A stretch of DNA of 64,000 bases. Source: Salinibacterium sp. G-O1. Its GTDB lineage: Bacteria; Actinomycetota; Actinomycetes; Actinomycetales; Microbacteriaceae. Shown here one piece after another: positions 448 to 57,086 of the stretch. How positions within the stretch are numbered: position 1 is the stretch's first letter; every line of letters starts with the position of its first letter. The DNA is taken from NCBI RefSeq assembly GCF_030063305.1, contig NZ_JASISV010000001.1:1054001-1118000 (forward strand). Direction: 5' to 3'. The notes under the pieces are model-generated. The model searched no databases, was not told the DNA's origin, and saw nothing but the letters and a program-made list of their open reading frames with translations. Position numbers and translations under genes: made by a program.

Positions 448-469
448 CGCACCAAACTATCGTGAGGCT

Positions 470-1282
470 ATGAGTGCGTACACGTCATGGACTGTGCAGG
501 ATGCCGCGGAGCGAATCGCAGTGCCCGCCACGGACGACGATAAATACTCGCGCGGGGTTCTCGGGGTGATCACCGGCTCGACCATGTACCCGGGCGCTGC
601 CGTGATCGGCGTGGAGGCGGCGCTGCGCACCGGTGTGGGGATGGTTCGCTACCTCGGCCCGGAGCGCGCGGCAGATCTGGTGCTGCAGCGGCGGCCCGAG
701 GCAGTGATCAGCGACGGTCGAGTGCAGGCCTGGCTGATGGGCTCGGGCATGGATCACGTCGAGCGCGAAAGCCTGCCACACATGGTCGCCGCTTTGGCGC
801 AGCCGGTGCCCGTCGTGCTCGACGGGGGTGCGCTCGATCTTCATTCGCGGGCGGGCGGCCCGGTCGTGGTCACGCCACACTTCCGCGAACTGGCGCGGTT
901 GTTGGGTGCCGACGTCTCGGATGTCGCCGCTGACCCGTCGGCGTGGGCGCGAAAAGCGGCAGACGCTCTTGGCGTCACAGTGCTGCTCAAGGGGCACACG
1001 ACGTACGTCGCTGGACCCGGCATCTCACTGAGCGCCGCGTCTGCACCCACCTGGCTGGCGACGGCGGGGGCCGGCGACGCCCTCGCCGGCATCCTCGGCG
1101 CACTGGTGGCCACCCATTCGCGCGAGGTTCAGGATGACCCCACCGAGCTCGCGCGGCTTGCAGCGACGGCGGCGGTGGTGCATGGTCTCGCGGCCGAGCG
1201 GGCCTCGGCCGGTGGCCCGCTCACCGTCCTCGATCTGGCAGCCGCGGTGCCGGCGACGATCGGCGCGCTGCTGCGCGGCTGA
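470..1282 (+). CDS. nnrD: ADP/ATP-dependent NAD(P)H-hydrate dehydratase
   Basis: YjeF C-terminal / ribokinase-like fold protein of 270 residues that dehydrates hydrated NADH and NADPH, a cofactor-repair role in the cytoplasm. The early conserved segment KYSRGVLGVITGS (from about residue 24) and the nucleotide-binding, catalytic loop AGAGDALAG near residue 200 are clear. The N-terminal epimerase domain found in some fusions is absent, so this is a dehydratase-only form. In-frame starts exist at 422, 434 and 440, but they would overlap the divergent gene; ATG 470 has TATCGT (458-463) and six bases in front, matching the leaderless pattern seen repeatedly in this window. Confidence 0.9.
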   Translation: MSAYTSWTVQDAAERIAVPATDDDKYSRGVLGVITGSTMYPGAAVIGVEAALRTGVGMVRYLGPERAADLVLQRRPEAVISDGRVQAWLMGSGMDHVERESLPHMVAALAQPVPVVLDGGALDLHSRAGGPVVVTPHFRELARLLGADVSDVAADPSAWARKAADALGVTVLLKGHTTYVAGPGISLSAASAPTWLATAGAGDALAGILGALVATHSREVQDDPTELARLAATAAVVHGLAAERASAGGPLTVLDLAAAVPATIGALLRG

Positions 1283-1336
1283 ATCAGCGTCAGCCCACCG
1301 CGCGGTCGCTCAGAGTGACCGGGCTACGCTAGCGAG

Positions 1337-2566
1337 ATGACGGAATCCACGCCCCGGCTACGCGGCGTCGATCGTCTCCTGGGCAGTCGCCCGGCCGCCT
1401 GGGCGGGCTTCATCGTGGTGCACGCGTGGCTCGCCTGGTTGTGCCTCTTCGGTCGGCATGAGGGCATGAACGATGTGTCGTCCGTCTACCGTCAGTGGGT
1501 CGAGCAGGCGCTCGACACCGGCGTCATCGTGGGGATCGACTCTGCCTGGGTCTATCCCATCCTCGCCATCGTGCCGATGCTCGCGGCCGCGGCATTCGGC
1601 ACTGCCCACTACGTGGCCACCTGGGTGGCGCTGGTCGTTGCCGTCAACGCGCTGGCCTTCGCCGTCATCGCCACGGGCACTCGTGTACGCGTGGCGTGGT
1701 GGTGGCTCGCATTCTTGGTCGCGCTGGGCCCCATCGCCCTTGCTCGCATCGACGCGATCACCGTGTCTCTCGGAGTCGTCGGTGTTCTGATGCTTTCGAC
1801 GAGGCCCAGACTCGCCGGCGTGGTGCTGGCGGTGGCGACCTGGGTGAAGGTCTGGCCCGCCGTGCTCATCGCCGCGGCCGTCGTGACGTCGCGCAGCCGC
1901 TGGCGAATTGTGCTGGCCGGCGCGGTGGTGTCTGCGGGCGTGGTGATTCTGGCGCTTATCCTCGGGGGCGGCGCCAGAATCCTCAGTTTCGTCACCGAAC
2001 AAGCCGGTCGAGGCCTGCAGATCGAGGCTCCCATCACCACATTCTGGATGTGGGCTGCCTTCACCGGGCAGCCGGGCGCTTCGGTCTATTTCGACCACGA
2101 GATCATCACCTACCAGGTGACCGGTGCCGGTGTGGATGTCGCTGCGGCAGCCATGACTCCGCTCCTGGTGGTCGTGGTGGCCGTTGTACTCGCGCTCGGC
2201 GTGAGGGCGGTACGGGCCGGGGCGACCATGGCCCAGGTTTTGCCCTCACTCTCGCTTTCTCTCGTGGTCGCGCTCATCGCGGTGAACAAGGTGGGCTCGC
2301 CCCAGTTCATCGGTTGGATCGCTGTTCCGATCGTGCTCGGGCTCGCGATGGCGGGCGGATCATTCCGAACGCCGGCATTTATCGCGCTCGGGATTGCTGC
2401 ACTTACGCAGGTAATCTATCCCTATTTGTACTTCGATCTGGTGACGCTGCAGCCGGGGATGCTGCTGGCTCTGACCCTGCGGAATATCCTTGAGTTCGTG
2501 CTGCTTGGCTGGGCCATCCGAGCGCTCGTACTATCGCCGAGCCGGCGCCCGCTGGCCACCCTATGA
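1337..2566 (+). CDS. GT87-type polyprenyl-phosphate-dependent mannosyltransferase-like membrane protein
   Basis: Polytopic membrane protein of 409 residues with about ten hydrophobic segments. It carries the short cytoplasmic-edge motif WVKVWPAVLI (about residue 171) typical of DUF2029 / GT87 proteins, which include the actinobacterial PimE-type alpha-mannosyltransferases of cell-envelope glycolipids. The donor and acceptor here are unknown. TACGCT (1325-1330) lies six bases before ATG 1337, so translation is probably leaderless. The stop codon shares bases with the ribosome-binding site of the next gene, so the two are likely co-transcribed. Confidence 0.75.
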   Translation: MTESTPRLRGVDRLLGSRPAAWAGFIVVHAWLAWLCLFGRHEGMNDVSSVYRQWVEQALDTGVIVGIDSAWVYPILAIVPMLAAAAFGTAHYVATWVALVVAVNALAFAVIATGTRVRVAWWWLAFLVALGPIALARIDAITVSLGVVGVLMLSTRPRLAGVVLAVATWVKVWPAVLIAAAVVTSRSRWRIVLAGAVVSAGVVILALILGGGARILSFVTEQAGRGLQIEAPITTFWMWAAFTGQPGASVYFDHEIITYQVTGAGVDVAAAAMTPLLVVVVAVVLALGVRAVRAGATMAQVLPSLSLSLVVALIAVNKVGSPQFIGWIAVPIVLGLAMAGGSFRTPAFIALGIAALTQVIYPYLYFDLVTLQPGMLLALTLRNILEFVLLGWAIRALVLSPSRRPLATL

Positions 2567-2576
2567 AGGAGTTGTC

Positions 2577-4951: not shown

Positions 4952-4970
4952 GGTAGGTCCTCTGTTTGGG

Positions 4971-11985: not shown

Positions 11986-13059
11986 TCAGGACTTGAGGCC
12001 CTCTTTGTCGACAAATAGCCACGCGGCCCGCGGCTCGACCAGCGGCCGGAAGATCCTCCGCACGATGGGGGTGCCGAGGACGAGCGCGATCACGATCCCC
12101 GCGAGGATCATCCCGGGAAGCAGGAGCGCCGGTGGGTCGTCACCCTTGAGCAGGTCAGACTGGCGAAGGGGATACAACACAAACGTGTGCAGCAGGTAGA
12201 TGTACATCGTCGCCTGGCCCCACGCGGTGATGGCGGTGTTGCGGCGCGGGATCAGCACGATGAAAGCGGCGATGAGAATGGTGGTCAGCACAATCCCCCC
12301 GAGCCTCACTGCGCCCGCCCACCACACGGTTGCGTCCATCCCGGAATATGAGTCGTCATAGAAGAACCAGTGATGGAGCGAGATCGCCTTGAACTCTTTG
12401 ACGTTCAGGACGATCACCGCGATCCACACTCCGAACACGAGCACGGCACCGCCGCGGATCCACAGGCTCGCGCGCGCGGTCGCGTCGTTCCATCGATCGA
12501 TGAAGCCCCACCCCTTCAGCTGCCACCCGAGCACGAAGAAGGGGAGGATGCCGATGGCGCGCGACAGCGAAAAGGTACTGTCCACGTTGCTGAAGTACCC
12601 AACGCCGATGGAGAGAACCACCGACAGCAGGAGCGGAAATCGGACGAGCGCGAGGTAGGGCAGAACGAGCCGGAAGATGGCCAGCGCGAGCAGGAACCAC
12701 AGGGTCCAGCTGGCTTTCGTCGGGTTAAAGTCCTGACTCCCCGTGACAACGAACTGCACCACGGTCCAGATCGCTTCCATGATGAAATACGGCAGCAGGA
12801 TGTCGGTGAGCACCCTCTTCATCTGGGAGGCGTTGGGTGGCCCGGGCTTTGAAAAATAGCCGCTGATCACGGCAAATGCCGGCATGTGGAACGAGTAGAT
12901 GAGTAGGTAGACGACGTAGGCGCTGTCGGAGGCGCCGGTGAGCCGCTGGATGCTGTGACCGACGACCACGAGGGTTACCGCGAGAAACCGGGCGTTGTCC
13001 CACATCGGCACGCGCTTCTTCGTTGTGGAAGCAGGGATCACGGGGGCTGAGGTCGTCAC
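11986..13059 (-). CDS. acyltransferase family 3 membrane protein
   Basis: Polytopic membrane protein of 357 residues with about ten helices. The N-terminal WDNARFLAVTLVVVGHSIQ contains the conserved Arg and His of the acyltransferase-3 family, and FHMPAFAVISGYF follows in helix 2. Relatives O-acetylate sugars or cell-envelope polysaccharides on the outer face. GTG 13059 is chosen because TACTGT lies seven bases upstream; GTG 13068 would sit inside that -10 element. It diverges from the SDR gene across only 32 bases. Confidence 0.8.
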   Translation of the reverse strand: MTTSAPVIPASTTKKRVPMWDNARFLAVTLVVVGHSIQRLTGASDSAYVVYLLIYSFHMPAFAVISGYFSKPGPPNASQMKRVLTDILLPYFIMEAIWTVVQFVVTGSQDFNPTKASWTLWFLLALAIFRLVLPYLALVRFPLLLSVVLSIGVGYFSNVDSTFSLSRAIGILPFFVLGWQLKGWGFIDRWNDATARASLWIRGGAVLVFGVWIAVIVLNVKEFKAISLHHWFFYDDSYSGMDATVWWAGAVRLGGIVLTTILIAAFIVLIPRRNTAITAWGQATMYIYLLHTFVLYPLRQSDLLKGDDPPALLLPGMILAGIVIALVLGTPIVRRIFRPLVEPRAAWLFVDKEGLKS

Positions 13060-13091
13060 CCAACCCACAGTAGCCGCGCTACTTTTATTCC

Positions 13092-13901
13092 ATGACTTCT
13101 GTGACCGATTCTGCCGCGCCCGAATCCACCACGACCAGACGTGCCGTCGTCACCGGGGCGAGTTCCGGCATCGGCGCAGCCACCGTCCGCCTGCTTCGCA
13201 AGCACGGCTGGGACGTCGTCGGCGTCGCCAGGCGTGCCGACCGGCTTGAGGCGCTCGCCGCCGAAACCGGCGCAGATGTCTTCGTCGCCGACGTCACAGT
13301 CCAGAGCGATGTGGATGCCCTGCGCGACTTTCTCGCGGCGCTCGGGCCGATCCACGCCCTGGTCAACAACGCGGGCGGCGCGCTGGGGCTCGAGAGTGTC
13401 GAGTCGAGCGACGCGGACGACTGGATCCGCATGTTCGATGTGAACGTGGTCGGGGTCAAGAGGGTCACGAGCGCGCTGTTGCCGCTGCTGCGGGCCGCCG
13501 TGGTGCCGGGCGCGAGTGCCGACATCCTCACCGTCACCTCGATCGCCGGTCACCTCGCCTACGAGGGTGGCGGAGGCTACGTCGCAGCCAAGCACGCGGT
13601 CGCATCCATGGTCGCCATCTTGAGGCTCGAACTGGCGGGGGAACCGATCCGGGTCACCGAAATCGCGCCGGGCATGGTGCACACCGACGAGTTCTCTCTT
13701 GTTCGCTTCGGAGGCGACCAGGCGAAGGCCGATGCCGTCTACGACAACGTTCCGAACCCGCTGTACGCAGAGGACATCGCCGTGGCAATGGTGCACATGC
13801 TCGAACTGCCGTTCTATGTGAACCTCGACCTCGTCACGATCAAGCCCGTTGCCCAGGCCGCGCCGCACAAGGTGATCAGGGGAGAGCTGAAGCCCCGGTG
13901 A
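13092..13901 (+). CDS. SDR-family NADP-dependent oxidoreductase (YdfG-like)
   Basis: Classical short-chain dehydrogenase of 269 residues. The Rossmann motif is TGASSGIG, the structural motif NNAGG, and the catalytic pair YVAAKHA gives Tyr and Lys. The Arg residues after strand 2 (VARRADRL) favour NADP(H). Sequence flavour is closest to 3-hydroxy-acid / serine dehydrogenases of the YdfG type; the substrate is inferred only. TACTTT (13080-13085) lies six bases before ATG, so the transcript is probably leaderless. The 3' end overlaps the convergent MFS gene by 26 bases. Confidence 0.87.
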   Translation: MTSVTDSAAPESTTTRRAVVTGASSGIGAATVRLLRKHGWDVVGVARRADRLEALAAETGADVFVADVTVQSDVDALRDFLAALGPIHALVNNAGGALGLESVESSDADDWIRMFDVNVVGVKRVTSALLPLLRAAVVPGASADILTVTSIAGHLAYEGGGGYVAAKHAVASMVAILRLELAGEPIRVTEIAPGMVHTDEFSLVRFGGDQAKADAVYDNVPNPLYAEDIAVAMVHMLELPFYVNLDLVTIKPVAQAAPHKVIRGELKPR

Positions 13902-15369
13902 CCTCGCCCGGCTCGAGGGCGTCGTCGATGTCGGCGAACGCGAGCTTCGGCACCAGAAACAGCAGCACGGCCGCAACCAGCGCGCCAACGCCGCAGATCG
14001 CCCACACCGTCATGTAGCCCATCAGGCTTGATGCGGTGCTTCCGATCACGGTGACGGCGCCCATCGCGAGCACGATCCCGAAGATGGCCGAGGCGAACGA
14101 ACCGCCGATGGTCTTCGTCGTATTGGTGAGCGCGGCGGCAATGCCGGTCTGCCCTGGTGGGGCGGCGGCTGCGGCCGCGGCCGGCATGGCCCCGACGAGA
14201 GCGCCAGAACCGATCCCGGCGATGAACATGTTGATGAAGACCTGATACGTCTCCAGGTGGAACGGGATGAACAGCAGGTATCCGGCCGCCACGAAGAACG
14301 CCGCGATGATCAGCGCGAACCTGGGGGAGCGTAAGCGGGATACCAGCGGGAAGAGCAGTGCCCCGCCGATCATGGAGATCAGATACACGCCGATCAGGGT
14401 GGATCGGTCGGTGGAGTCGAGACCCAGGCCGTATCCGTTCGACGGATCCGTGCCCGCGTATGCGCTCAGCGGAGCCTGTGCCCCCAGCAGGCTGATGCCG
14501 ATCAGGAAGGCGGTGAGCTGCACCGGCCACATGTTCGGCTGGGCCAGCACCCGAAGGTCGATAGCCGGGTCTTTCTGCTTCAGCTCGTAGCGGGTGAACG
14601 GGATGAACGTGGCGATTCCCGCGGCGATGAGCAGGTATACCCACCATGCTTCGAGCCCGTTCAACCTGAGGAAGGTCAGCCCCGAAGTGATCAACAGCAG
14701 GCCAATAGTCAGGATGCTGAACCCCACGAAATCGAGGGAACGCCCCGGCAGCGGGGTTGACTCCGGCACGCCGAACAGGATGACGAAGAACACCAGGGTG
14801 ACCGCAATCGCCGGGATCATGAGGGTGACAGGCACGTTCTCGCCGGTCCACCCGAACACCCTGCCGCCCAGAAGCGCGCCGATGATGGCCCCGGCCTCGA
14901 GGGCGACCACGAGGAATCCTGCAGCCTTGCGGGTCTGTGACGCCCCCTTGCCGGTGCGACGCCCCCTGTCGAAGATCAGCGCCACCTCCAGGGGAAGCCA
15001 CACAACATAGAAGCCCTGAAGCGCCCAGGCGATGAGGAACGTCACAAAGTTGTCGGCGAACACCAGTCCCCAGCTCGCCAGGGCCGTCAGCACCGTCGAG
15101 ATGAGCAGGATTTTCTTGTGGCCGTACATGTCGCCGAGTTTGGCGAGGATGGGTACGACGAGGGCCGAGAGCAGCAGCTGCGCTGCCTCGAACCAGTTGA
15201 AGTCTGCGTCTTTGATGCCGAGGTAGGTCACCAGATCGGTGATGAGAGGCACGTAATACCCCTGCAGCACCCCGCTGACGATTTCGACGAGGAAGAGATA
15301 GCCGATCAACCCGAAGGTGATGGCGCCAGCCTTGCCTCGCAGCGCGGACTTCCCCGGAAGAATACTCAT
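13876..15369 (-). CDS. MFS transporter (14-helix type)
   Basis: Transporter of 497 residues with 12 to 14 hydrophobic segments. The loop 2-3 motif appears as AKLGDMYGHKKILL, and the long central linker KQKDPAIDLRVL is typical of EmrB/QacA-like members. An alanine-rich stretch (PAAAAAAAPPGQTG) lies in a late loop. Substrate unknown. ATG 15369 follows TACGAT and exactly six bases, which decides it over ATG 15390. It converges with and overlaps the SDR gene, and its promoter region directly follows the terminator of the esterase gene. Confidence 0.82.
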   Translation of the reverse strand: MSILPGKSALRGKAGAITFGLIGYLFLVEIVSGVLQGYYVPLITDLVTYLGIKDADFNWFEAAQLLLSALVVPILAKLGDMYGHKKILLISTVLTALASWGLVFADNFVTFLIAWALQGFYVVWLPLEVALIFDRGRRTGKGASQTRKAAGFLVVALEAGAIIGALLGGRVFGWTGENVPVTLMIPAIAVTLVFFVILFGVPESTPLPGRSLDFVGFSILTIGLLLITSGLTFLRLNGLEAWWVYLLIAAGIATFIPFTRYELKQKDPAIDLRVLAQPNMWPVQLTAFLIGISLLGAQAPLSAYAGTDPSNGYGLGLDSTDRSTLIGVYLISMIGGALLFPLVSRLRSPRFALIIAAFFVAAGYLLFIPFHLETYQVFINMFIAGIGSGALVGAMPAAAAAAAPPGQTGIAAALTNTTKTIGGSFASAIFGIVLAMGAVTVIGSTASSLMGYMTVWAICGVGALVAAVLLFLVPKLAFADIDDALEPGEVTGASALP

Positions 15370-15396
15370 GAACGGATCGTAGTGCCTCATCGGTGA

Positions 15397-18210: not shown

Positions 18211-18260
18211 TATGGATCGCTCTTCGGGGATGTCAACCATCTGAGCGGTACAGTATGTGC

Positions 18261-19283
18261 GTGCCTTCGCCGACCCCACGACGCAAACGTGCAACCGTTC
18301 ACGAGGTCGCCTCGGAGGCGGGCGTCTCCCGCGGGACGGTCAGCAGGGCCATCAACGGCGACCGGTACGTGTCGGCCGAAGCCCGTAAGGCAATCGACGC
18401 CGCGATCATCAAGACGGGCTATGTCCCCAACCTCGCAGCCAGAAGTCTTGTGATGCAGCGCTCTCAGGCCATCGGGTTGCTTGTGCACGAACCGCACTCG
18501 ATGTTTGTGGAGGACCCCAACATCGGTGACATCCTGCTGGGCGCAAACCGGGAACTCTCCAAGGCTGGCTACCTCATGACGATGCTCGTGGTCGATTCGG
18601 AGGGCGACACCGCTCCGATCGAGCGCTATCTCAGCGGGGGCGTCGTCGACGGGGTCATCGTGATCTCAGCGCGACGTGACGATCCCCTTACCGCCGTCAT
18701 CCGTCGGCTGGGGCTCCCCGCCGCCTTCGTCGGGCATCCGCCGGATATTGAGGGCATGTCGTTCGTCGGCATCGACAACCACAAGGCGGCGGAGGCGATC
18801 ACGCTGCGCCTCATCGGCACCGGCCGCAAGCGGGTCGGGATGATCGCTGCCGCCCTCGACCGTGACTCGGGCGCCGACCGGCTCGCCGGGTTCACTGCGG
18901 CCCTCGGTGACGATTTCGACCCCACCCTCGTGAGCGCGGTCGACCTCTATTCGTACTCGGAGGGGGTTCGCGGAATGCGCGCGCTGTTGCAGCGCGAGCC
19001 GAACATCGACGGGGTCTTCGCCGCCTCCGATTCACTCGCGGCGGGTGCCCTCGACGTGCTCAGGGAGGCCGGATATCGTGTGCCGGAAGACGTGGGCATC
19101 GTCGGATTCGACAACAGCGACTGGGCGACCCGCTGCGACCCTCCACTGTCGACGGTGGACCAGCCCGCCGCGGGGCTCGGCACGAGTGCGGCACGGTCGG
19201 TTCTCAACCAACTGGACGGGGTCGGACCGGAGCCGGGCGGGATCTATCTCGATACCCCGATCATTTGGCGCGACTCCGCGTAG
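18261..19283 (+). CDS. LacI-family transcriptional repressor
   Basis: Regulator of 340 residues. The N-terminal helix-turn-helix contains ATVHEVASEAGVSRGTVSRA and the hinge segment GYVPNLAARSLV; the rest is a periplasmic-binding-protein-like effector domain ending with the FDNSDWATRCDPPLSTVDQP signature. The effector is probably a sugar or glycoside released from the esterase's substrate, by inference. TACAGT (18249-18254) is followed by six bases and GTG 18261, matching the leaderless pattern; ATG 18255 in the same frame would lie before the transcription start. It diverges from the wall-anchored esterase gene with two operators in between. Confidence 0.9.
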   Translation: MPSPTPRRKRATVHEVASEAGVSRGTVSRAINGDRYVSAEARKAIDAAIIKTGYVPNLAARSLVMQRSQAIGLLVHEPHSMFVEDPNIGDILLGANRELSKAGYLMTMLVVDSEGDTAPIERYLSGGVVDGVIVISARRDDPLTAVIRRLGLPAAFVGHPPDIEGMSFVGIDNHKAAEAITLRLIGTGRKRVGMIAAALDRDSGADRLAGFTAALGDDFDPTLVSAVDLYSYSEGVRGMRALLQREPNIDGVFAASDSLAAGALDVLREAGYRVPEDVGIVGFDNSDWATRCDPPLSTVDQPAAGLGTSAARSVLNQLDGVGPEPGGIYLDTPIIWRDSA

Positions 19284-19331
19284 ACCGGCCGATCGTGCGG
19301 CGGGGTGCACGTGTGCCGGTACCGTTATGAC

Positions 19332-19823
19332 ATGGCTGATGACGCGCGCGAGATCCTGACCTGGAACGACTTCGGAACGGCATCGCGCGAGCTCGCAACC
19401 AAGGTGGTTCTGAGCGGTTTCGAGACCGATGTAGTCGTCGCGATCGCCCGCGGTGGATTGCTGCTGGCCGGAAGTGTCGCGTATGCGCTCGGGGTCAAGA
19501 GCTGTGGTGCCGTCAACGCGGAGTTCTACACCGGGGTCGGCACACGGCTGCCCGAGCCCGTGATGATGCCTCCGCTGCTGGACGAGGCATCCATCGTCGG
19601 TAAGAAGGTGCTTCTGGTGGACGACGTCTCCGATTCGGGCCGCACGCTCGCGATGGTCGTGCAGCTGCTTGAGCTGGGTGGAGCCGAGGTTCGCACCGTC
19701 TGCCTGTACTCGAAGCCCGGCACCGTGCTCGAGCCCACGTACACCTGGCGCAAGACGGATCGCTGGATTGACTTTCCGTGGTCGGAATTGCCGCCGGTCA
19801 CCCCGGAGGAAGCCGCAGCCTGA
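19332..19823 (+). CDS. PRPP-dependent phosphoribosyltransferase (purine-type)
   Basis: Type I phosphoribosyltransferase of 163 residues. The PRPP-binding signature is [14 protein letters not shown] and an upstream [13 protein letters not shown] loop supplies the PPi-binding Arg-Gly. The short length and [10 protein letters not shown] region resemble xanthine/hypoxanthine-guanine enzymes of the archaeal-like XPRT group; the base is not certain. TACCGT (19320-19325) is six bases before ATG 19332. Its stop codon overlaps the start codon of ung by one base, so the two are translationally linked. Confidence 0.82.
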
Positions 19824-20500
19824 TGCCGGAACCGCTGGCCGGTCGGATCGACCCGAGCTGGACTCGCGCGCTCAAGCCGGTCTCGAACCAGTTCGCGGCG
19901 ATGGGCGATTTCCTGCGGGCCGAGACGGCTGCCGGGCGCGACTACCTGCCGGAAGATCAGAACGTCCTGCGGGCTTTCAGCTATCCACTGGATGGCGTTC
20001 GCGTGCTGATCGTCGGGCAGGATCCGTATCCGACGCCGGGGCACGCTGTCGGGCTCTCATTCTCGGTCGATCGGAACGTGCGGCCGGTGCCGCGCAGCCT
20101 GCAAAACATCTACCGCGAACTGCACGAAGACCTGGGGGTCAAAATCCCGGATCACGGTGACCTCGGCGCATGGGCGTCGAAAGGCGTCATGCTGTTGAAC
20201 AGGGTGTTGACCGTGCAGGCTGGGTTGGCAGGATCGCACCGTGGCAAGGGGTGGGAAGCCGTGACCGGGGCGGCGATCCGAGCCCTCGCTGACCGTCCGG
20301 GCCCGCTCGTCGCGATTCTGTGGGGACGGGATGCCGCCAGCCTGAGCCCGCTGCTCGGATCGACCCCCACCATCGTCAGTGCGCACCCCAGTCCGCTGTC
20401 TGCCCGAAAAGGCTTCTTCGGCTCGAGACCATTCAGCCGCGCCAATGAACTGCTGGCTGACCAGGGCGCAAGCCCGGTCGACTGGTCACTTCCTGAGTAG
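19823..20500 (+). CDS. ung: uracil-DNA glycosylase (family 1)
   Basis: Base-excision repair enzyme of 225 residues that removes uracil from DNA. The water-activating motif GQDPYP (Asp67) and the leucine-loop motif [13 protein letters not shown] (His188) are intact, as is LLNRVLTV for uracil recognition. ATG 19823 overlaps the preceding stop (TGATG) and has GGAGGAAG upstream. Length and motif spacing are normal for family 1. Confidence 0.95.
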
Positions 20501-20509
20501 GCTCGATTC

Positions 20510-21091
20510 ATGCTCGAAGAGGAATACCAGCCGCGTCGCCAGCTGCCCCCTCACCTTCGTCCGGCGCCGGTGCGAGAGGCTCCATTTTCGTTCACGCTCC
20601 GGACGGCCGAACTCGGTGACTTGCCGAGCATTCGCGAGATCTACAACCACTACGTGCTCAACTCGTCGATCACCTTCGACAATGTGCCCTGGACCTTTCC
20701 GGTGCTCCGCAAAAAATTCGAGGATGTGACCCAGCGAGGGTTCCCGTTCATCGTGGCGGTCAGTCCGGGCGGGCAACTGCTCGGTTTCGCCTACGTCTAC
20801 CCGTGGAAGGCGAAGGCGGCCTACCGGTTCAGCGTTGAGAACCACATCTATCTCGGGCCGGCCTCCGCGGGCAAGGGATTGGGCAAGGCAATGATGGCCG
20901 AGCTGATCGCCAGGTCACGTGCGGCCGGTGTCAGGGAGATCATCGCCGTGATCGCCGACAAGAATGCCGACGCCTCGATCGCTATGCACGAGAAGCTCGG
21001 CTTCAGAGTCGTTGGCCACATGGGCCGAGTTGGTTTCAAGTTCGACCGCTGGCTGGGCACCGTGACCATGAGGCTCGCTCTGCGCAAGTAG
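20510..21091 (+). CDS. GNAT N-acetyltransferase, phosphinothricin/L-methionine-sulfoximine acetyltransferase-like
   Basis: Acetyltransferase of 193 residues. After a Pro-rich N-terminal extension of about 27 residues comes the PAT/MnaT fold: IREIYNHYVLNSSITFD, the WKAKAAYRFSVENHIYL strand, the acetyl-CoA loop GKGLGKAMM and the C-terminal HEKLGFRVVGHMGRVGFKF. Relatives acetylate glutamine analogues or methionine sulfoximine/sulfone; true substrate unknown. TAGGCT (20498-20503) and six bases precede ATG 20510, so it has its own leaderless promoter inside the end of ung. Confidence 0.85.
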   Translation: MLEEEYQPRRQLPPHLRPAPVREAPFSFTLRTAELGDLPSIREIYNHYVLNSSITFDNVPWTFPVLRKKFEDVTQRGFPFIVAVSPGGQLLGFAYVYPWKAKAAYRFSVENHIYLGPASAGKGLGKAMMAELIARSRAAGVREIIAVIADKNADASIAMHEKLGFRVVGHMGRVGFKFDRWLGTVTMRLALRK

Positions 21092-23167: not shown

Positions 23168-23205
23168 CATGTTGCGTCAGCCGTGTCAAGACCTAGGCTC
23201 GGAAA

Positions 23206-24653: not shown

Positions 24654-24672
24654 TTAGGTAAGGCATGCCTAT
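24654..24672 (+). promoter_or_regulatory. DtxR/IdeR-type iron box
   Basis: TTAGGTAAGGCATGCCTAT matches 14 of 19 positions of the actinobacterial iron-regulator consensus (TTAGGTTAGSCTAACCTAA) and overlaps the -10 element TATACT (24670-24675) of the next gene. Iron-dependent repression is the expected outcome. Confidence 0.8.
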
Positions 24673-24683
24673 ACTGGAATGAC

Positions 24684-26303: not shown

Positions 26304-26326
26304 GGTTCGCAGAATACAGTGGCTGC

Positions 26327-32680: not shown

Positions 32681-32727
32681 GCTTCCACACTACGGGCCGC
32701 CCGGTGGGCGCCGGAAGGACGGCCGGT

Positions 32728-33552
32728 TTAGGCCGCCGAGTTGAGGGCGCCGATGATCCTGAGGATCGTGGGCATGTCGTCAGCCGACTCAGCGATGGAT
32801 GCCGGTGCGAATTCGGTCACGCCGGCGCCCGCAAGCGGGTAGCGCTCCAGCAGCCCCTTCACCGTCTCGACAAGCGTCGTTGCCGTCACACCGAATGGCT
32901 GAGGAGAGCCGAGGCCGGTGAAGTCGGCAGAGTCGATGACGTCGAGGTCGATGTGAATGTAGACGGATGTCGCGCCCGTCGCCTCGACCGCGGCAATCAG
33001 CGTCTCGGCGCTCACGCTGCCGGCCTCGACGCACCTGATGTTCTTCTCTTCGACGAAGGCGTCCTCTCCCGGGTCGAAGGAGCGCGCCCCCGCCAACACC
33101 ACGCGGGACGGCTGCAGGGTGGCGCTTGGCACGAGCTGCTCGGGCCCCTCGCCCATGAGCGTGCGCAGCACCATGCCGGTGAACGCCCCGGACGTGCTCG
33201 ACTGCGGCGTGTTCAGGTCGGGATGCGCGTCGAACCAGACGACCGCGACATCCGGTTTCTGGAGGGCATGGCTGATGGCGGCGAGCTCGACTCCGCAGTC
33301 TCCACCGATCGTGATTGCGGTGCCGTCGGCTTCTCGCAGGGAGTGCGCGAGGCGATCCCGCACCATCATGATCGAACTCAACCGGTGAACGCCCGTGCCC
33401 TGGGCATCTCCGGCTTCGAGGGGAATGTCGACAACCACGGTTGATGACGATGGCAGGTCGCCCCTGATTGCCTCGGCACCATCGACCAAACGCATGGCGC
33501 GAGACGAACCGGAACCCTGCCACTGGGGCACTACGACGAAAGTGGCTGGCAT
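32728..33552 (-). CDS. arginase/agmatinase-family protein with atypical metal site
   Basis: Ureohydrolase-fold protein of 274 residues. Metal-site motifs are GGDCGVE (Cys86 where arginases have the His of GGDHS), WFDAHPDLNTP (Asp108, His110, Asp112) and HIDLDVID. Replacement of the first His ligand by Cys suggests altered metal binding or a different substrate, as in several arginase-family proteins of unknown role. TAAGGT and six bases precede ATG 33552, so it is likely leaderless. Confidence 0.82.
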   Translation of the reverse strand: MPATFVVVPQWQGSGSSRAMRLVDGAEAIRGDLPSSSTVVVDIPLEAGDAQGTGVHRLSSIMMVRDRLAHSLREADGTAITIGGDCGVELAAISHALQKPDVAVVWFDAHPDLNTPQSSTSGAFTGMVLRTLMGEGPEQLVPSATLQPSRVVLAGARSFDPGEDAFVEEKNIRCVEAGSVSAETLIAAVEATGATSVYIHIDLDVIDSADFTGLGSPQPFGVTATTLVETVKGLLERYPLAGAGVTEFAPASIAESADDMPTILRIIGALNSAA

Positions 33553-33601
33553 GCGAGAACCTTATCGCGTGGCCCGCGCGAGGTTTGGCTCCGTGGCATG
33601 C

Positions 33602-40004: not shown

Positions 40005-40018
40005 GCTATGGTGAACGT

Positions 40019-41446
40019 GTGAATGATCTTGTGACCCTCGGCCAGCGCATCCGCCACTTTCGGACGGCGGCGGGAATGACTCTCGACCAGTTGGGGGAGA
40101 AGGTCGGCATCGCGGGCAGTCAGCTATCGCTGATGGAAAACGGGCGGAGAGAGCCGCGACTCACCCTGCTTTCCGCCATCGCCGGTGCCTCCGGTGTGCA
40201 GCTGGCAGATTTGCTCGACGAAGCGCCGCCGAGCAAACGCGCGGCCCTCGAGATCGAGCTCGACCGCGCGCAGCACAGCAGTGTTTACGCCTCGCTGGGA
40301 TTGCCAGGCATCCGCCCCTCGAAGGGCACGAGTGACGAGACGCTCGAGGCTCTCGTGGGATTGCACCGCGAACTCGCCCGTCGAGCGCGGGAAGCCATTG
40401 CAACACCCGAAGAAGCCCGTCGTGCCAACACCGAACTGCGCCAGTACATGCGAACTGTCGATAACTACCTGCCAGCAATCGAAAATGTCAGCGAGAAGCT
40501 GTTGACGGACGTCGGCCACACGACCGGCGCATTGACCCACCGCACGGTCACCAGAATGGCCGAAAAGCTGGGCTTCGAGCTCGTGCACGTTCACGACCTC
40601 CCGCATTCCGCACGATCGGTGACGGACCTCGCCAACGGCCGCATCTACCTCCCGCCAGCCTCAATTCCGGGCGGGCACGGCTTGCGAGGTATGGCGCTTC
40701 AGGCCATGGGACACCGCGTCCTGGGTCACGAGACTCCCGTCACGTACGCCGACTTCCTGTTGCAGCGGCTCGAGATCAACTACTTCGCCGCAGCGGTGCT
40801 GATGCCGCAGCGGCAGTCCGTCGAATTCCTCAGTCAGGCAAAATCCGATCGCAACATCGCCGTCGAAGACTTCCGTGACGCCTTCGGTGTTACTCACGAG
40901 GCCGCAGCACTTCGCTTCACCAACCTGGCGACGACGCATCTCGGACTCGAAGTGCACTTCCTGCGGGTCGGCGATGATGGGGCGGTTGCGAAGGCCTACG
41001 AGAATGACTCGCTTCGGCTTCCGGTGGATGTCACCGGCTCGACTGAAGGACAATTCGTGTGCAGAAACTGGAGTGCCCGCACCGCCTTTACGCGCACCAG
41101 CCGCACGACTGAGTTCTACCAGTACACCGATACGCCGGAGGGCACGTTCTTCGAATCGACGCAGACCGGAACGACCGATTCCGGCGAATTCTCGATCTCG
41201 ATCGGGGTTCCGTTCGCCCACTCGAAGTGGTTTCGTGGCCGGGAAACGACCAACCGGATGTCGTCGACCTGTCCGGACGAAACGTGCTGCCGACGGCCGG
41301 ATTCCCGTCTCACCGAGCGCTGGTCGGGCAAGGCATGGTCGAGCGCGAAGCTGCACGCGCACGTGTTGTCGCCCCTGCCGGCCGGCACGTTTCCCGGGGT
41401 AGACGACCGCGAGCTCTACGAGTTCCTCGAGTCACACGCCGACTAG
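40019..41446 (+). CDS. XRE-family short-chain fatty acyl regulator (ScfR; RamB/PrpR-like)
   Basis: Regulator of 475 residues. The N-terminal Cro/C1 helix-turn-helix (about 5-60) contains TLDQLGEKVGIAGSQLSLME. The middle region carries a degenerate IrrE-like segment (LRGMALQAMGHRVLGHE), and the C-terminal ScfR domain has cysteine pairs (CPDETCCRRPDSR) that may hold an Fe-S cluster or acyl-CoA site. RamB and PrpR relatives control acetate, propionate and glyoxylate genes, and pckG lies divergent. TATGGT (40007-40012) and six bases precede GTG 40019; the frame is open to 39950, but that would start upstream of the promoter. Confidence 0.85.
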   Translation: MNDLVTLGQRIRHFRTAAGMTLDQLGEKVGIAGSQLSLMENGRREPRLTLLSAIAGASGVQLADLLDEAPPSKRAALEIELDRAQHSSVYASLGLPGIRPSKGTSDETLEALVGLHRELARRAREAIATPEEARRANTELRQYMRTVDNYLPAIENVSEKLLTDVGHTTGALTHRTVTRMAEKLGFELVHVHDLPHSARSVTDLANGRIYLPPASIPGGHGLRGMALQAMGHRVLGHETPVTYADFLLQRLEINYFAAAVLMPQRQSVEFLSQAKSDRNIAVEDFRDAFGVTHEAAALRFTNLATTHLGLEVHFLRVGDDGAVAKAYENDSLRLPVDVTGSTEGQFVCRNWSARTAFTRTSRTTEFYQYTDTPEGTFFESTQTGTTDSGEFSISIGVPFAHSKWFRGRETTNRMSSTCPDETCCRRPDSRLTERWSGKAWSSAKLHAHVLSPLPAGTFPGVDDRELYEFLESHAD

Positions 41447-44723: not shown

Positions 44724-45065
44724 CTAGGTTGCCGGCCCCAGAACTCCCGGTTCGGGCGTGGTCGAACTGTGCTTCAACTCGACCAGAATCGTGTGGGTCG
44801 GCGTGCTGCCGATGTTGCGACCGCGGTGGGTCTGCGTCGGCAACCAGACCGCGGAGCCTGCTGTGAGGCTGACGTCGCGGGTATTGCCACCAATGGTGAG
44901 ACGACGGTCAAAATCGGTGAGCGTCACCATCACGGTGTTGGGATGGGCGTGTGGGGTGGTCTCATCGCCGGGGACGTCCCGGTATTCGAGCACCCTGACG
45001 TCGTCGTTTTCCCAGAGGGTCCGGTAGAGCTCCGGATCCGTAATCGTTGGGTCGGTGTCTGTCAT
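44724..45065 (-). CDS. small cupin-domain protein
   Basis: Single-domain cupin of 113 residues. The metal-binding motif 1 appears as TPHAHPNTVMVTLTD (His-x-His) and motif 2 as GSAVWLPTQTHRGRNIG; YRDVPGDETTPHAHP is typical of small beta-barrel proteins of unknown function. No fused domain. TAGCAT and six bases precede ATG 45065, suggesting a leaderless mRNA. Convergent with the SulP gene, 34 bases apart. Confidence 0.8.
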   Translation of the reverse strand: MTDTDPTITDPELYRTLWENDDVRVLEYRDVPGDETTPHAHPNTVMVTLTDFDRRLTIGGNTRDVSLTAGSAVWLPTQTHRGRNIGSTPTHTILVELKHSSTTPEPGVLGPAT

Positions 45066-45105
45066 AGGCGGATGCTACTCCCGTGGCCTCCCGCTGGATA
45101 TAGGT

Positions 45106-48581: not shown

Positions 48582-49862
48582 TCAGGGCAATTCCTCGGCG
48601 TCGCTGAGGCGTCGCGACACCGAAATCCGTATCGCCCGATACAGCAGTCCCAGCGCGAGCACGACGACGCCGCCCACGATCGCGCTCGGCGGCAGCGTGG
48701 CGGCGAGCACGAGGCATCCTGCCGCACCGAGCACGAAAACTGCCCTAGGGAACCGTCTTCTGTCGGCGCCTTGCGTGATGGCAGACACGTTCGCGACGAA
48801 ATAGTAAAGCAGCACGCCGAATGATGAGAATCCGATCGCCCCTCGAACGTCGATGGTCAGCACGACCGCCACGACGGCGACCGCCACCACGACCTCGGCG
48901 CGGTGTGGAACCTGGAATCGTGGATGCACGGCAGAGAGCCACCGTGGCAGGTCAGCCTCGCGCGCCATCGCCAGGCTCGTGCGACCGACGCCCGCGATGA
49001 GCGCGAGCAGCGCCCCGAGGGCGGCGAACGCCGCGCCGATGGTGACGACCGGCCCGGTCCACGACCACCCGCCAGCGACCGCTGCGTCCCGGATCGGGGC
49101 GGTGGACTCGGCCAGCGCCACGGGCCCCAGTGTCGCCAGCAGCGTCGTGCCGACCACCGCGTAGACCGCGATGGCGATCGCCAGGGCGATGATGATCGCG
49201 CGTGGGATCGTGCGCGATGGGTTGCGAACCTCCTCGCCCATGGTCGCGATGCGCGCATAGCCGGCGAATGCGAAGAACAGCAGCCCGGCGGACTGCAGGA
49301 TGCCGTATGGACCCGAGGCGAGGATGGGGGAGTCGATGGGCCCGGCCGTGCTCTGTGGTCCGGCTGCGGCCGACGCGACAACGGCGACGGCGAGCGCCGC
49401 GAGCACGATGACGACGATGATGCGCGCGAGCCTCGCGGTTCTCGTGACACCGCGATAATTCACAGCGGCGAGGGCGCAGACGGCGGCGACGGCCACGGGT
49501 TTCTGCCACCCCGCTGGAGCGGCGTAGGCGGCGAAGGTCAGAGCCATTGCCGCGCAGCTCGCGGTCTTTCCGACGACGAAACTCCACCCGGCGAAAAATC
49601 CCCACCAGTGCCCGAGCTGTTCGCGCCCGTAGACGTAAGTGCCGCCAGACACCGGGTACGCGGCCGCCAGTTGCGCTGACGCGAGCGCGTTGCATCCTGC
49701 GACTATCGCGGCAACCACGAGTCCCACCAGCAGGCCGGCCCCCGCGGCCTGCGCGGCGGGGGCGAAGGCGGCGAACACTCCGGCCCCGATCATGGAGCCG
49801 AGGCCAATGAACACGGCGTCGGAGGTGCCGAGGCTGCGGCTGAGCGGCGTAGCGGTGGTCAT
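48582..49862 (-). CDS. APC-family amino-acid permease
   Basis: Membrane transporter of 426 residues with 12 helices. Helix 1 has the substrate-binding break GLGSMIGAGVFAAF, helix 2-3 YPVSGGTYVYGREQLG, and helix 6 FFAFAGYARIATMGEEVRNP, the signature of the basic/neutral amino-acid antiporter branch. The substrate is not determined. TATCCT and six bases precede ATG 49862. It is the nearest downstream gene of ppx on the same strand, 30 bases away, but has its own promoter. Confidence 0.88.
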   Translation of the reverse strand: MTTATPLSRSLGTSDAVFIGLGSMIGAGVFAAFAPAAQAAGAGLLVGLVVAAIVAGCNALASAQLAAAYPVSGGTYVYGREQLGHWWGFFAGWSFVVGKTASCAAMALTFAAYAAPAGWQKPVAVAAVCALAAVNYRGVTRTARLARIIVVIVLAALAVAVVASAAAGPQSTAGPIDSPILASGPYGILQSAGLLFFAFAGYARIATMGEEVRNPSRTIPRAIIIALAIAIAVYAVVGTTLLATLGPVALAESTAPIRDAAVAGGWSWTGPVVTIGAAFAALGALLALIAGVGRTSLAMAREADLPRWLSAVHPRFQVPHRAEVVVAVAVVAVVLTIDVRGAIGFSSFGVLLYYFVANVSAITQGADRRRFPRAVFVLGAAGCLVLAATLPPSAIVGGVVVLALGLLYRAIRISVSRRLSDAEELP

Positions 49863-49892
49863 CTGCGCAGGATAGGGGATCGAGGTAACCGG

Positions 49893-50825
49893 CTAGGTCG
49901 TCATGAGGTGATCGAAGCGCCTCAAGATCAGACCCTCCCGCAGCGCCCATGGGCAGATCTGCATCGATTCGACGTTCAACCCCTCCATCGCCGCCTGCGC
50001 AACGAGGGCTGCTGCGAGCAGTTGGCGCGCGCGGACGGCGGAGACTCCCGGAAGCTCGGCTCGGTCATCCGAGGCCATGGCGGAGAGTCTCGTGGTCCAC
50101 AGGGTCAGGTCCTGCAGCAACAGCTCTCTGCGCACGTACGGTCCGTCTGCTTCGGGTGCGGAGCCGGCGATGCGGGCGAGCGAGCGGAACGACTTGGAGG
50201 TTCCTGCGACGAGTGTTGGTTCGCCGAGGCGCTCAATCTCTTCCAGCGGGCCTTCGAGGGTGGCGCGGATGTGCTTGCGGGCTTCCTTGACACTTTTCGC
50301 GGTGGGCGGGTCTTCTGCGAAGAAGTCACGGGTAAGGCGACCCGCGCCGAGCGGCACAGAAAGCGCAAGTTTTGGCTGCTCTTTGGCGCCCATCGCCAGT
50401 TCGAATGATCCGCCACCAATGTCGAGGTTCAGGATCGTGCCGGAACCCCAGCCGTACCAGCGGCGCACCGCGAGAAATGTTGCGGCTGCCTCCTCCTGAC
50501 CGCTCAATTCGACGAGCTGGGTGCCGGTCTCGGCCAGCACGCGCTCGAAAATGGCCGGCCCGTTGGTGGCGTCGCGCAGGGCAGACGTGGCGAACGCCAT
50601 CATGTCTTCCGCGCCATTGTCTTTCGCGATGGTGGCGGCTTCGCCCACAAACTCGATGAGCTTCGTCTGGCCTTCGGCCGAAATCGATCCGTCGTCCTCC
50701 AGAAACTGGATGAGCTGCAGGGGCTGCTTATGCGATGTGTACGGGATGGGTCGGGCGCCGGGGAAGGCATCCACCAGCAGCATATGAACGGTGTTCGAGC
50801 CGATATCGAGAACGCCCAGTCGCAT
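49893..50825 (-). CDS. Ppx/GppA-family exopolyphosphatase
   Basis: Actin-fold phosphatase of 310 residues, one-domain form typical of actinobacterial Ppx1. The phosphate-1 motif is VLDIGSNTVHMLLVDA, the second is NLDIGGGSFELAMG, and VAGTSKSFRSLARIAG lies later. It removes terminal phosphate from polyphosphate and perhaps the pppGpp gamma-phosphate. TAGATT and six bases precede ATG 50825; it diverges from the ArsR gene. Confidence 0.9.
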   Translation of the reverse strand: MRLGVLDIGSNTVHMLLVDAFPGARPIPYTSHKQPLQLIQFLEDDGSISAEGQTKLIEFVGEAATIAKDNGAEDMMAFATSALRDATNGPAIFERVLAETGTQLVELSGQEEAAATFLAVRRWYGWGSGTILNLDIGGGSFELAMGAKEQPKLALSVPLGAGRLTRDFFAEDPPTAKSVKEARKHIRATLEGPLEEIERLGEPTLVAGTSKSFRSLARIAGSAPEADGPYVRRELLLQDLTLWTTRLSAMASDDRAELPGVSAVRARQLLAAALVAQAAMEGLNVESMQICPWALREGLILRRFDHLMTT

Positions 50826-50888
50826 GCACCGAATCTACTCTCTGCGCGCTGGTTTGATGGAAACATAAAACCGTGGAATTATGAGCGA

Positions 50889-51236: not shown

Positions 51237-51241
51237 GGGCC

Positions 51242-52885: not shown

Positions 52886-53471
52886 GAAGTGACGCCCGCT
52901 CGGCGCGAGCCGCCTTCCACACCGCCCTCGCAGCATCCGCGTTGAGGAGTCCTATCCCTATGCCGAGGATGATGTCGAGCCAGCCGGTCTGAAGCCAGGC
53001 GGTCAGCAGGGCAACGACGATGATCGCAACATTCGCCAGCGAATCATTACGTGCTGAGAGCCAAGCCGCGCGGGTCAGGCTGCCCGAGTGCTTGCGGTGG
53101 CGTAGCAACAGGAAGGCGCAGGTCAGGTTGATGATCAGAGCGCCGAAGGCGGCAAGAGAGAGTGGGACGACGTCCGGTGGGGTCGGGTTGATTATTTTGA
53201 GCACCGCCATGGCGATTGTCGCGACGGCCGGCAACACAATGACGAACGCGAGCACGCTTCCCACGGTCGCCCGGCGCTGAGCCGACCAGGCGAGCGAAAA
53301 GAAGATGAGCAGATTGATCGACGCGTCTTCGAGAAAATCCACGCTGTCGGCGAGGAGTGACACAGATCCGACCCGTTGAGCGACCACGAACTCCACGCCA
53401 AAGTACGCCAGGTTCAGAATGGCGACGACGAGAACGATCCGCCGGAATCCCGGTGGAGGTGCGGTGGTCAT
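52872..53471 (-). CDS. short cation-diffusion-facilitator-like transporter
   Basis: Membrane protein of 199 residues with five or six helices, related to the CDF family but lacking the C-terminal cytoplasmic domain. Helix 2 has SLLADSVDFLED and helix 5 SARNDSLANVAIIV; the usual HxxxD metal site is altered, with Asn replacing the second His. Zinc or cobalt export is therefore uncertain. The frame is open to 53690; TACGCT and six bases precede ATG 53471, fixing the start and suggesting a leaderless mRNA. Confidence 0.8.
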   Translation of the reverse strand: MTTAPPPGFRRIVLVVAILNLAYFGVEFVVAQRVGSVSLLADSVDFLEDASINLLIFFSLAWSAQRRATVGSVLAFVIVLPAVATIAMAVLKIINPTPPDVVPLSLAAFGALIINLTCAFLLLRHRKHSGSLTRAAWLSARNDSLANVAIIVVALLTAWLQTGWLDIILGIGIGLLNADAARAVWKAARAERASLLTEA

Positions 53472-53529
53472 CTTGACAGCGTAGGAGATGCGGCAGACAC
53501 GTCGCGGGCGACGCTGGCCTGGCCGGCGG

Positions 53530-54783: not shown

Positions 54784-54919
54784 GCCGATCCTCCCGGTTG
54801 GCTGCAGATTCCGTGGTCGAACGGGGTCGACGTTGGCACCAGCAGCCCCTCAAGGGTAGCCACATCGCGTCGACGGCGGCAGCGCATCTCGAGTCAAGAG
54901 GGTGCGAGAGGATTGGAGC

Positions 54920-55528: not shown

Positions 55529-56196
55529 CCTCGATCTTCGAAAGCGCGCTCGGTGACGATTTCGCGCGACTGTCTCCGATGATGCAGAAGCGGTTCGGCG
55601 TCGGGCTCGAGCCCGGCTACGCCTGTGTCGGCACAGGAGTGATGTCACGTATTCGGCGGGGTCCATGGTGGGTGGTGCCGTTCCTCTACATCGGCAAGCT
55701 GCGCAACATCCTCATCCCGGATGTCGGCGTGAACGTGCCGTTCACGATCGAGAACTACCCGTATCGCGACCCATTCGGGCGCGAGACTGTAACTTTCGTG
55801 CGCGAGTACCAGGTTCGACAGAAACCGAGCCGATTCGACGCGACCATGATTCTCAGCCAAGGACGCGTGCTCGACTACCTCGGAACCCACCAGCACCTTG
55901 CCGTCGCTCTGGACCTCAACGTGGGCGACGATGGATCTCTCCGGCTCACGTCAAGCGAACAGCGCTTCTATGAGGGTCGTTTCATCGCGTTCCGATTCCC
56001 CATGCTTTTCAGCGGCCGTGCCGAGCTGAACGAAAGTTTCGACGCCGCCGCGGGCGTTTACAGAATCAAGATGGAAGTGCACAACCGGGTATTCGGCTTC
56101 CTCTTCGGCTACGAGGGCGAATTCACCTGCGACTTCCCAGCAGCTATTGACGCTCCTGTTCGGCTGAAACCATTGCGCCACGAGCGGCGCGTTTAG
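55525..56196 (+). CDS. DUF4166-type protein
   Basis: Protein of 223 residues similar to DUF4166 proteins, function unknown. It has no signal peptide; visible segments are FARLSPMMQKRFGV, VPFTIENYPYRDPFGRETVTF and the C-terminal EVHNRVFGFLFGYEGEF. These proteins commonly accompany SRPBCC or lipid-related genes. The start overlaps the SRPBCC gene stop. The 97 bases after it, up to the tRNA, hold nothing I can name. Confidence 0.75.
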   Translation: MTSIFESALGDDFARLSPMMQKRFGVGLEPGYACVGTGVMSRIRRGPWWVVPFLYIGKLRNILIPDVGVNVPFTIENYPYRDPFGRETVTFVREYQVRQKPSRFDATMILSQGRVLDYLGTHQHLAVALDLNVGDDGSLRLTSSEQRFYEGRFIAFRFPMLFSGRAELNESFDAAAGVYRIKMEVHNRVFGFLFGYEGEFTCDFPAAIDAPVRLKPLRHERRV

Positions 56197-56293
56197 CCAG
56201 GTCGATCGAATCACGCTGCAACCTGCTTGCGCTGGAATCACGGGGGCCGCTGGGCGCCTCAGTCAAGCCACTCCGACCAGCACTTTTACACAG

Positions 56294-56365
56294 TGCCCCC
56301 ACGCAGATTCGAACTGCGGCCCCTGCCTCCGGAGGGCAGTGCTCTATCCCCTGAGCTATGGGGGC
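56294..56365 (-). tRNA. tRNA-Arg (CCG)
   Basis: A full 72-base cloverleaf reads on the minus strand from GCCCCCA to TGGGGGC plus discriminator A. Anticodon stem CTGCC/GGCAG holds loop CTCCGGA, so the anticodon is CCG (decodes CGG). The T arm is CGCAG-TTCGAAT-CTGCG; D arm GCTC/GAGC. The 3' CCA is not encoded. Confidence 0.95.
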
Positions 56366-56426
56366 CAGGAGTTCGAGGTCAAGGCTACCAGCGGTATCGC
56401 ATGCTTCAGTTACGTAGTGTGGAGTG

Positions 56427-57086
56427 GTGAGCGAGCCCAGCATCCGTGACATCCTGCGCCACCTTCCGCCGTTCGCGACCGATCTGCCCGATTTCGATAC
56501 GGATGCCGCCCCGGCAGACCCGCTCGAATTGTTCGGTTCGTGGCTGGCCGAGGCCGTCCGCGTCGGCGTGGCGCAGCCGCACGCGATGGTGCTGTCGACC
56601 GCGGGGATGGACGCGACGCCCACCGCCCGCACGCTGCTGTTGAAGGATGTGACGGCCGAGGGGCTCTGGTTCGCGAGCGTCGGCGACAGCCCCAAGGGCC
56701 GCGAGATCGCCGCCAATCCGAGCGTGGCGCTCACGTTCTACTGGCGCGAGCAGGGCAGGCAGGTGCGGGTCACGGGGGAGGCCAACATCGGACCACGGGC
56801 GGTTGCCGAGCTCGACTTTCTGGCGCGGCATCCGACGGCGCGAGCGAATGTGATCGCCGGTCGGCAGAGCGAACCCATGCCCGAGGAGGCGGACGTGCAG
56901 CGCGCTGTCGGCGCCGCGCGCGAGCTGGTGGCGCAGCATCCTGAGACAGTTCCGGACGACTGGAACGCATACCTCGTCAGGCCGGAAACCGTCGAATTCT
57001 GGCAGGCTTCGCGCGAGCGTGACCAGGTGCGGCTCCGGTACTCCCGCACCGCGGAGAGCTGGGCAACGGCGGTGCTCTGGCCGTAA
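56427..57086 (+). CDS. pyridoxamine 5'-phosphate oxidase-family flavoprotein (PdxH-like)
   Basis: Split-barrel FMN protein of 219 residues resembling PNPOx: DPLELFGSWLAEAV, HAMVLSTAGMDATPTARTLLLKD, PKGREIAANPSVALTFYW and RQVRVTGEA all match. However, the RPxxSQIGAWAS segment is changed (ARANVIAGRQS) and the substrate-binding RLHDR near the end reads RERDQ, so PLP synthesis is doubtful; PhzG-like or other oxidase activity is possible. TAGTGT (56415-56420) and six bases precede GTG 56427; GTG 56424 is adjacent. Confidence 0.82.
   Translation: MSEPSIRDILRHLPPFATDLPDFDTDAAPADPLELFGSWLAEAVRVGVAQPHAMVLSTAGMDATPTARTLLLKDVTAEGLWFASVGDSPKGREIAANPSVALTFYWREQGRQVRVTGEANIGPRAVAELDFLARHPTARANVIAGRQSEPMPEEADVQRAVGAARELVAQHPETVPDDWNAYLVRPETVEFWQASRERDQVRLRYSRTAESWATAVLWP

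Follow-up and report, generated by a model that had tools for sequence, protein, structure and literature searches.

In high-GC Actinobacteria, the hexamer TANNNT was described ahead of leaderless starts, with its first T lying about 12 bp upstream, and the leaderless share was 19.2% of genes on average, with a range of 2.3 to 29.8% (86 of 89 genomes; Zheng et al. 2011, PMC3160421). Here the same motif was analysed in a 64,000-nucleotide stretch of Salinibacterium sp. G-O1 (contig NZ_JASISV010000001.1, positions 1,054,001 to 1,118,000; called the window below) and in further parts of this genome. The motif was computed directly, along with its spacing, gene context and conservation. The best explanation, to which we give a probability of about 0.87, is that TANNNT acts as a -10 element placed so that transcription begins on the start codon, in a predicted leaderless class of about one quarter of the genes. 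The general finding is already known, and the present genome is one more member of the Actinobacteria leaderless class described in 2011. Motif and position are the same as in that study and the share of about 26% lies inside its range; only the organism and the finer count of spacings differ.

Similar arrangements have been reported with other methods and in other groups. GeneMarkS-2, which uses several upstream models per genome, predicted that 21.6% of bacterial species use leaderless transcription, and Actinobacteria are named as a clade rich in leaderless genes (PMC9581028). Mycobacterium tuberculosis has a TANNNT -10 element without a conserved -35, a purine start, C at -1 and many leaderless genes (Cortes et al. 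2013, PMC3898074). The features are the same here, whereas 5' ends were sequenced there and transcript starts are predicted from the DNA here. In Deinococcus-Thermus, another phylum, the -10 motif likewise adjoins the start codon of the open reading frame (ORF) and the mRNA is leaderless (PMC12340547).

Divergent gene pairs that share one -10 element are the less ordinary part of the present findings and are worth an experiment. A paper in Nature Microbiology is reportedly the first on prokaryotic bidirectional promoters. In E. coli, divergent starts around a shared -10 prefer a distance of 18 bp, and 10 and 23 bp are also common (PMC12825309). The 23-bp form has the geometry of the pair 447/470 of the window. 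The E. coli system is not treated as leaderless in that paper, in which the word does not occur; here, transcription appears to start at both start codons. The divergent prpD and Rv1129c of M. tuberculosis both have leaderless mRNAs, and divergent promoters lying close together are described as common there (PMC3898074). Among the literature matches listed, as judged from titles, abstract beginnings and word counts, no bacterial paper treats leaderless and bidirectional promoters together; a paper on an archaeon (PMC6640164) contains both words.

Spacing and gene context of TANNNT

Genes were called as the best chain of ORFs by dicodon score, and starts were chosen by coding score and a start-codon penalty, without upstream information. 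Outside the window, 40 spaced 20-kb stretches gave 732 starts with enough upstream sequence; sample and window together amount to 864 kb, or about 27% of a genome of 3.14 Mb in 6 contigs. The first-pass annotation of the window had suggested counting N6 against other spacings, and this count gave a clear excess of N6. With k as the number of bases between hexamer and start codon, TANNNT was present at k=6 in 79 of the 732 sampled starts and at k=7 in 15, and every other k from 0 to 44 held only 0 to 6. Adding the window brought k=6 to 90 of 792 starts. When the count was widened to every in-frame candidate start scoring no more than 25 bits below the best in sample and window, 127 of 3361 had the motif at k=6, versus 8 of 2475 out-of-frame ATG or GTG codons in the same stretches. 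The k=6 peak was also present in four other genomes from the family or order when starts were called from coding score alone, with counts of 33/353 (G106), 17/333 (G148), 8/325 (G048) and 5/332 (G117). Among these five genomes, that of the window had the most k=6 starts and the lowest GC.

A mixture model with a leaderless, a Shine-Dalgarno (SD) and an empty class was fitted over 815 genes. The weights were 0.26, 0.55 and 0.19, respectively, and 189 genes had a leaderless probability above 0.5. The learned hexamer frequencies were 0.77 for the first T, 0.92 for A and 0.96 for the last T, and the spacing of the leaderless class was six bases in 0.75, seven in 0.17, eight in 0.025 and nine in 0.045. 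The spacing, which had been called constant, is thus tight but not single-valued. Similarly, the pattern had been called genome-wide; the k=6 excess does extend across the sampled genome, but it covers only about one quarter of the genes. It had also been proposed that the -10 alone predicts the start codon. In sample and window, TANNNT-N6 matches fell on in-frame candidate starts in 94 of 117 cases for ATG, 34 of 76 for GTG and 1 of 18 for TTG, so the prediction is good for ATG but poor for GTG.

The class depends strongly on the upstream neighbour. Leaderless assignment was found for 85 of 256 genes with a divergent neighbour, but for only 4 of 163 genes overlapping a same-strand neighbour (Fisher p 1.8e-16), and 114 of these 163 were assigned to the SD class. 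For same-strand gaps of at least 50, 15–49 and 0–14 bases, the leaderless counts were 48/198, 36/99 and 11/63. C stands at -1 in 48% of 104 strong leaderless cases, as in M. tuberculosis (PMC3898074). Over the five genomes, TTG starts made up 3 of 376 leaderless starts versus 45 of 1068 SD starts (p 0.0007). This near-absence is expected from the rule of mycobacteria, in which leaderless initiation is restricted to ATG and GTG (PMC4633059).

In the mechanism proposed, the housekeeping sigma factor would read TANNNT as a -10 element, and with six or seven bases to ATG or GTG, RNA polymerase would begin transcription at the codon's first base. The mRNA would lack a 5' leader and be translated without an SD site, and this set-up would be used mainly at genes opening a transcription unit. 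Where divergent -10 hexamers overlap on a shared TA (ANNNTANNNT), as they do in a few pairs, this arrangement puts about 23 bp between the start codons. The start points of transcription, the sigma factor involved and the lack of a leader are predicted here from sequence. The sharp k=6 peak, the restriction to promoter-bearing positions, the near-absence of TTG and the conservation of the motif all argue for this leaderless reading.

Conservation in relatives and alternative explanations

By its MshA-like protein, the nearest named relative is Salinibacterium xinjiangense (Microbacteriaceae; 81% identical). A 21-kb locus of this species (L041) was compared with the window; genes too close to the locus end were skipped, and 15369 and 18261 have no counterpart in the comparison. 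TANNNT with the same spacing was kept, as read by eye, in all 10 leaderless starts with a readable homologue (13092, 19332, 20510, 23206, 24684, 26303, 26327, 32680, 33552 and 40019), among them 24684 with its k=8 and 26303 with its k=7; a script also confirmed 26303, 26327 and 13092. Seven k=6 starts away from mshA were then compared column by column between the window and this locus. T-12, A-11 and T-7 were identical in 7 of 7, and each column from -40 to -18 matched in 2 to 6 of 7.

The motif had also been used to correct several start choices. At 15369 (minus strand, MFS transporter; -10 TACGAT, N6, ATG, 15367–15381), supported by the start model, TANNNT, the six-base gap and ATG were kept by eye in 11 of 11 same-genus homologues read; the twelfth genome had only a weak match. 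In 10 of the 11, an in-frame TAG lies within the hexamer, which makes a start upstream impossible. The start at 18261 (plus strand, LacI-type regulator; TACAGT, N6, GTG, 18249–18263), supported by the start model and without a homologue in the S. xinjiangense locus, agrees with the proposal, and coding score alone had already picked it. The start at 56427 (plus strand, PdxH-like; TAGTGT, N6, GTG, 56415–56429) is favoured by the start model and by the motif in one close homologue, but the spacing there is k=7. For annotation, the -10 fixes ATG starts well in this lineage and exposes misplacements made by longest-ORF or coding-only choices, 15369 being the clearest case.

Among other explanations, transcription may begin close to the codon, one to a few bases on either side of it, and many of the mRNAs would carry very short leaders and be near-leaderless. 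The spread of spacings (0.17 at seven, 0.025 at eight and 0.045 at nine bases) fits such a picture, as do the orthologues of 447 and 470, which differ in spacing (k=5, 6 and 7). The k=6 mode sets the purine of the codon at a usual start distance from the -10 (this distance is 7 bp in PMC12825309), and the near-absence of TTG is expected if the codon is the 5' end; we consider very short leaders rather improbable. A role of the hexamer in translation, as an AT-rich ribosome site of non-SD type in the mRNA and not as a promoter, is very unlikely. Its position would suit a ribosome site, but only 4 of the 163 overlapping same-strand genes have it, and such genes require a ribosome site but as a rule no promoter. 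The rarity of the class among overlapping genes is unlike the behaviour of a ribosome site and points to a promoter. Next to negligible is the chance that these are ordinary leadered genes with true promoters upstream and TANNNT by the codon only through base composition: the motif is short and 5 of the 23 strings in the window lie off modelled starts, but the counts are 79 of 732 at six bases against 15 at seven and 0 to 6 elsewhere, out-of-frame codons have it in 8 of 2475, and it is conserved in 10 of 10.

Some observations weigh against the leaderless reading. When a -35 box was sought in the 104 strong cases, none was found (TTG at spacers of 16, 17 and 18 bases in 2, 1 and 0 cases), so the promoter call depends on the -10 alone. 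In G117 (5/332) and G048 (8/325), the peak is weak and the motif learned by the model starts with C, not T. In the column comparison, columns -17 to -14 were identical in 6, 7, 6 and 6 of 7 starts, and columns -6 to -1 in 5 or 6 of 7, which indicates that some constraint reaches beyond the hexamer.

Sites in the window

TANNNT-N6-ATG/GTG was found at all 18 gene starts that the first-pass annotation had listed, and the longer gaps that it had described, N7 at 13059(-) and 26303(-) and N8 at 24684 and 58572, are also present. Both strands of the window contain 23 TANNNT-N6-RTG strings, and the 18 that lie on modelled gene starts are exactly those listed. The other five (25318+, 62443+, 18200-, 7397- and 6082-) may be chance matches, internal promoters or small leaderless ORFs. 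The weakest of the 18 sites in the start model is 470 (start posterior 0.49), and 40019 (start 0.60, leaderless 0.57) and 33552 (start 0.86, leaderless 0.63) are also among the weakest.

Supported by the start model and kept in the S. xinjiangense locus are, on the plus strand, 19332 (TACCGT, N6, ATG, 19320–19334), 20510 (TAGGCT, N6, ATG, 20498–20512), the amidase start 23206 (TAGGCT, N6, GTG, 23194–23208), 24684 (TATACT, N8, ATG, 24670–24686, with k=8 in both) and 40019 (TATGGT, N6, GTG, 40007–40021). On the minus strand, the same holds for 32680 of the enoyl-CoA hydratase family (TAGTGT, N6, ATG, 32678–32692) and for 33552 (TAAGGT, N6, ATG, 33550–33564). Sequence and start model support 1337 on the plus strand (TACGCT, N6, ATG, 1325–1339) and, on the minus strand, 45065 (TAGCAT, N6, ATG, 45063–45077), the amino acid transporter start 49862 (TATCCT, N6, ATG, 49860–49874), the exopolyphosphatase-like 50825 (TAGATT, N6, ATG, 50823–50837) and 53471 (TACGCT, N6, ATG, 53469–53483). 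The N8 site before the arginyl-tRNA synthetase start 58572 (plus strand; TAAACT, GTG, 58558–58574) is uncertain and weak (posterior 0.43).

The gene at 20510–21091 (+) encodes a GNAT protein nearest to the ArsN1 and phosphinothricin acetyltransferase families, with all three matches under the curated cut-offs. A tRNA-Arg (ccg) gene at 56293–56365 (-) lies divergent from and just upstream of the predicted leaderless gene 56427.

Divergent pairs around a shared -10 core

Three head-to-head pairs occur among the starts of the first-pass annotation; the start codons lie 23 bp apart in 447/470, 33 bp in 13059/13092 and 24 bp in 26303/26327. At 447/470 and 26303/26327, two -10 hexamers on opposite strands have a TA in common within one -10 core, ANNNTANNNT, and both genes appear to be leaderless; the overlapping hexamers read AAACTATCGT at 454–463 and AGAATACAGT at 26311–26320. 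In the first pair, 447 (minus strand; TAGTTT, N6, ATG, 445–459; start posterior 1.00, leaderless 0.98) has TA 458–459 in common with the -10 of 470 (plus strand, NAD(P)H-hydrate dehydratase-like; TATCGT, N6, ATG, 458–472). The pair is present in 3 of 4 relatives with the same hexamers (TAGTTT and TATCGT) at distances of 23 to 25. In these three, which have the divergent partner, the 447 orthologues keep TAGTTT with k=5, 6 and 7. The 470 orthologues keep TATCGT in 4 of 4 relatives, with k=7 there; in the fourth (L265), the partner gene is not at this place.

In the pair 26303/26327, the start 26303 (minus strand; TATTCT, N7, ATG, 26301–26316) has TA 26315–26316 in common with the -10 of 26327, the start of an MshA-like glycosyltransferase (plus strand; TACAGT, N6, ATG, 26315–26329). 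In all four relatives with both genes (L041, L244, L245 and L247), the right spacing is k=6 and the left is k=7. The left start in L244, L245 and L247 lies 4 to 6 codons off the position aligned to the first residue of the window protein, so both the motif and homology guided its choice. L246 ends at the contig edge with no left homologue visible, and is not among the four. For 13059/13092, the start model favoured 13011 over 13059 (minus strand; TACTGT, N7, GTG, 13057–13072), yet the GTG with k=7 and the k=6 motif of 13092 (plus strand; TACTTT, N6, ATG, 13080–13094), itself supported by the start model, are both kept in S. xinjiangense. Elsewhere in the genome, a further pair of the 23-bp type was found at 4084/4107 of L025, both starts leaderless above 0.9. 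In the relative G106, two starts called leaderless lie 17 bp apart across a near-palindrome, CATGTTGTAATCTTACAACATG (L182, 7711–7728).

The left gene of the mshA pair (25860–26303, minus strand), whose -10 core is common with mshA, encodes a 147-amino-acid protein that contains HEAVH, an HExxH-like stretch, and matches no NCBIfam family at 1e-5; it is 65 to 83% identical next to mshA in four relatives. For the mshA-like gene itself (26327–27559), 12 same-genus genomes were compared in addition to that of the window: only 4 have strong homologues (66 to 73%), and the remaining 8, of which one is split into 430 contigs, gave distant glycosyltransferase matches only. The mshA-like copy of G203 has an internal stop. 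The first step of mycothiol synthesis may thus be patchy in the genus.

The pattern CAY-N6-ANNNTANNNT-N6-RTG was counted in 197 genomes of the class, with palindromic matches counted once and the pattern read backward as control. It gave 346 matches versus 176 for the control, and a version with five-base flanks (k=5) gave 86 versus 225; this control is unfair, since TA becomes AT in it, and it outnumbers the k=5 pattern. In 9 genomes of the own family, the counts were 18 versus 4 for the 23-bp pattern and 4 versus 9 for the k=5 version. The genome of the window alone showed no excess (4 versus 3).

Matches were then inspected with the coding model of the window's genome, and in some that were scored as one-sided the gene chain had dropped a high-scoring opposite ORF. 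Among 40 matches of the 23-bp pattern, hand-picked from those listed, coding starts were present on both sides in 14, on one side in 21 and on neither in 5, and for 20 matches of the k=5 version these counts were 0, 2 and 18. From the hand-picked sample (14 of 40, applied to 346 matches over 197 genomes), about 0.6 shared -10 pairs would be expected per genome. The 18-bp geometry was rejected: it occurred 175 times versus 200 for the control, which is even less fair to this form, and only 2 of 20 inspected matches had starts on both sides, with 11 one-sided and 7 on neither. In stretches of five genomes, 395 divergent pairs were measured. The distance of 23 occurred in 4 pairs, a joint top count within 0 to 100, and in 2 of the 4 both starts were leaderless (posterior above 0.4). 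No strong peak of quantised start distances emerged from these 395 pairs; a genome-wide preference is not claimed, and one for 23 bp is unproven. It is very probable that leaderless pairs with a shared -10 exist; in the places examined they are conserved, but they are rare.

On balance, we favour the view that Actinobacteria have bidirectional leaderless promoters, in which the 10-bp ANNNTANNNT would serve as the -10 for both strands of divergent genes 22 to 24 bp apart. As each of the two mRNAs would begin on its own start codon, the codons would be held about 23 bp from each other, and the mshA promoter, conserved within the genus and in Salinibacterium, would be one case. Its conservation across species makes the shared -10 of mshA directly testable. 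If this is true, such pairs would rank with the most compact control regions conceivable for divergent genes, and RNA polymerase would pick either direction on the same 10 bp, without leader RNA for regulation on either side.

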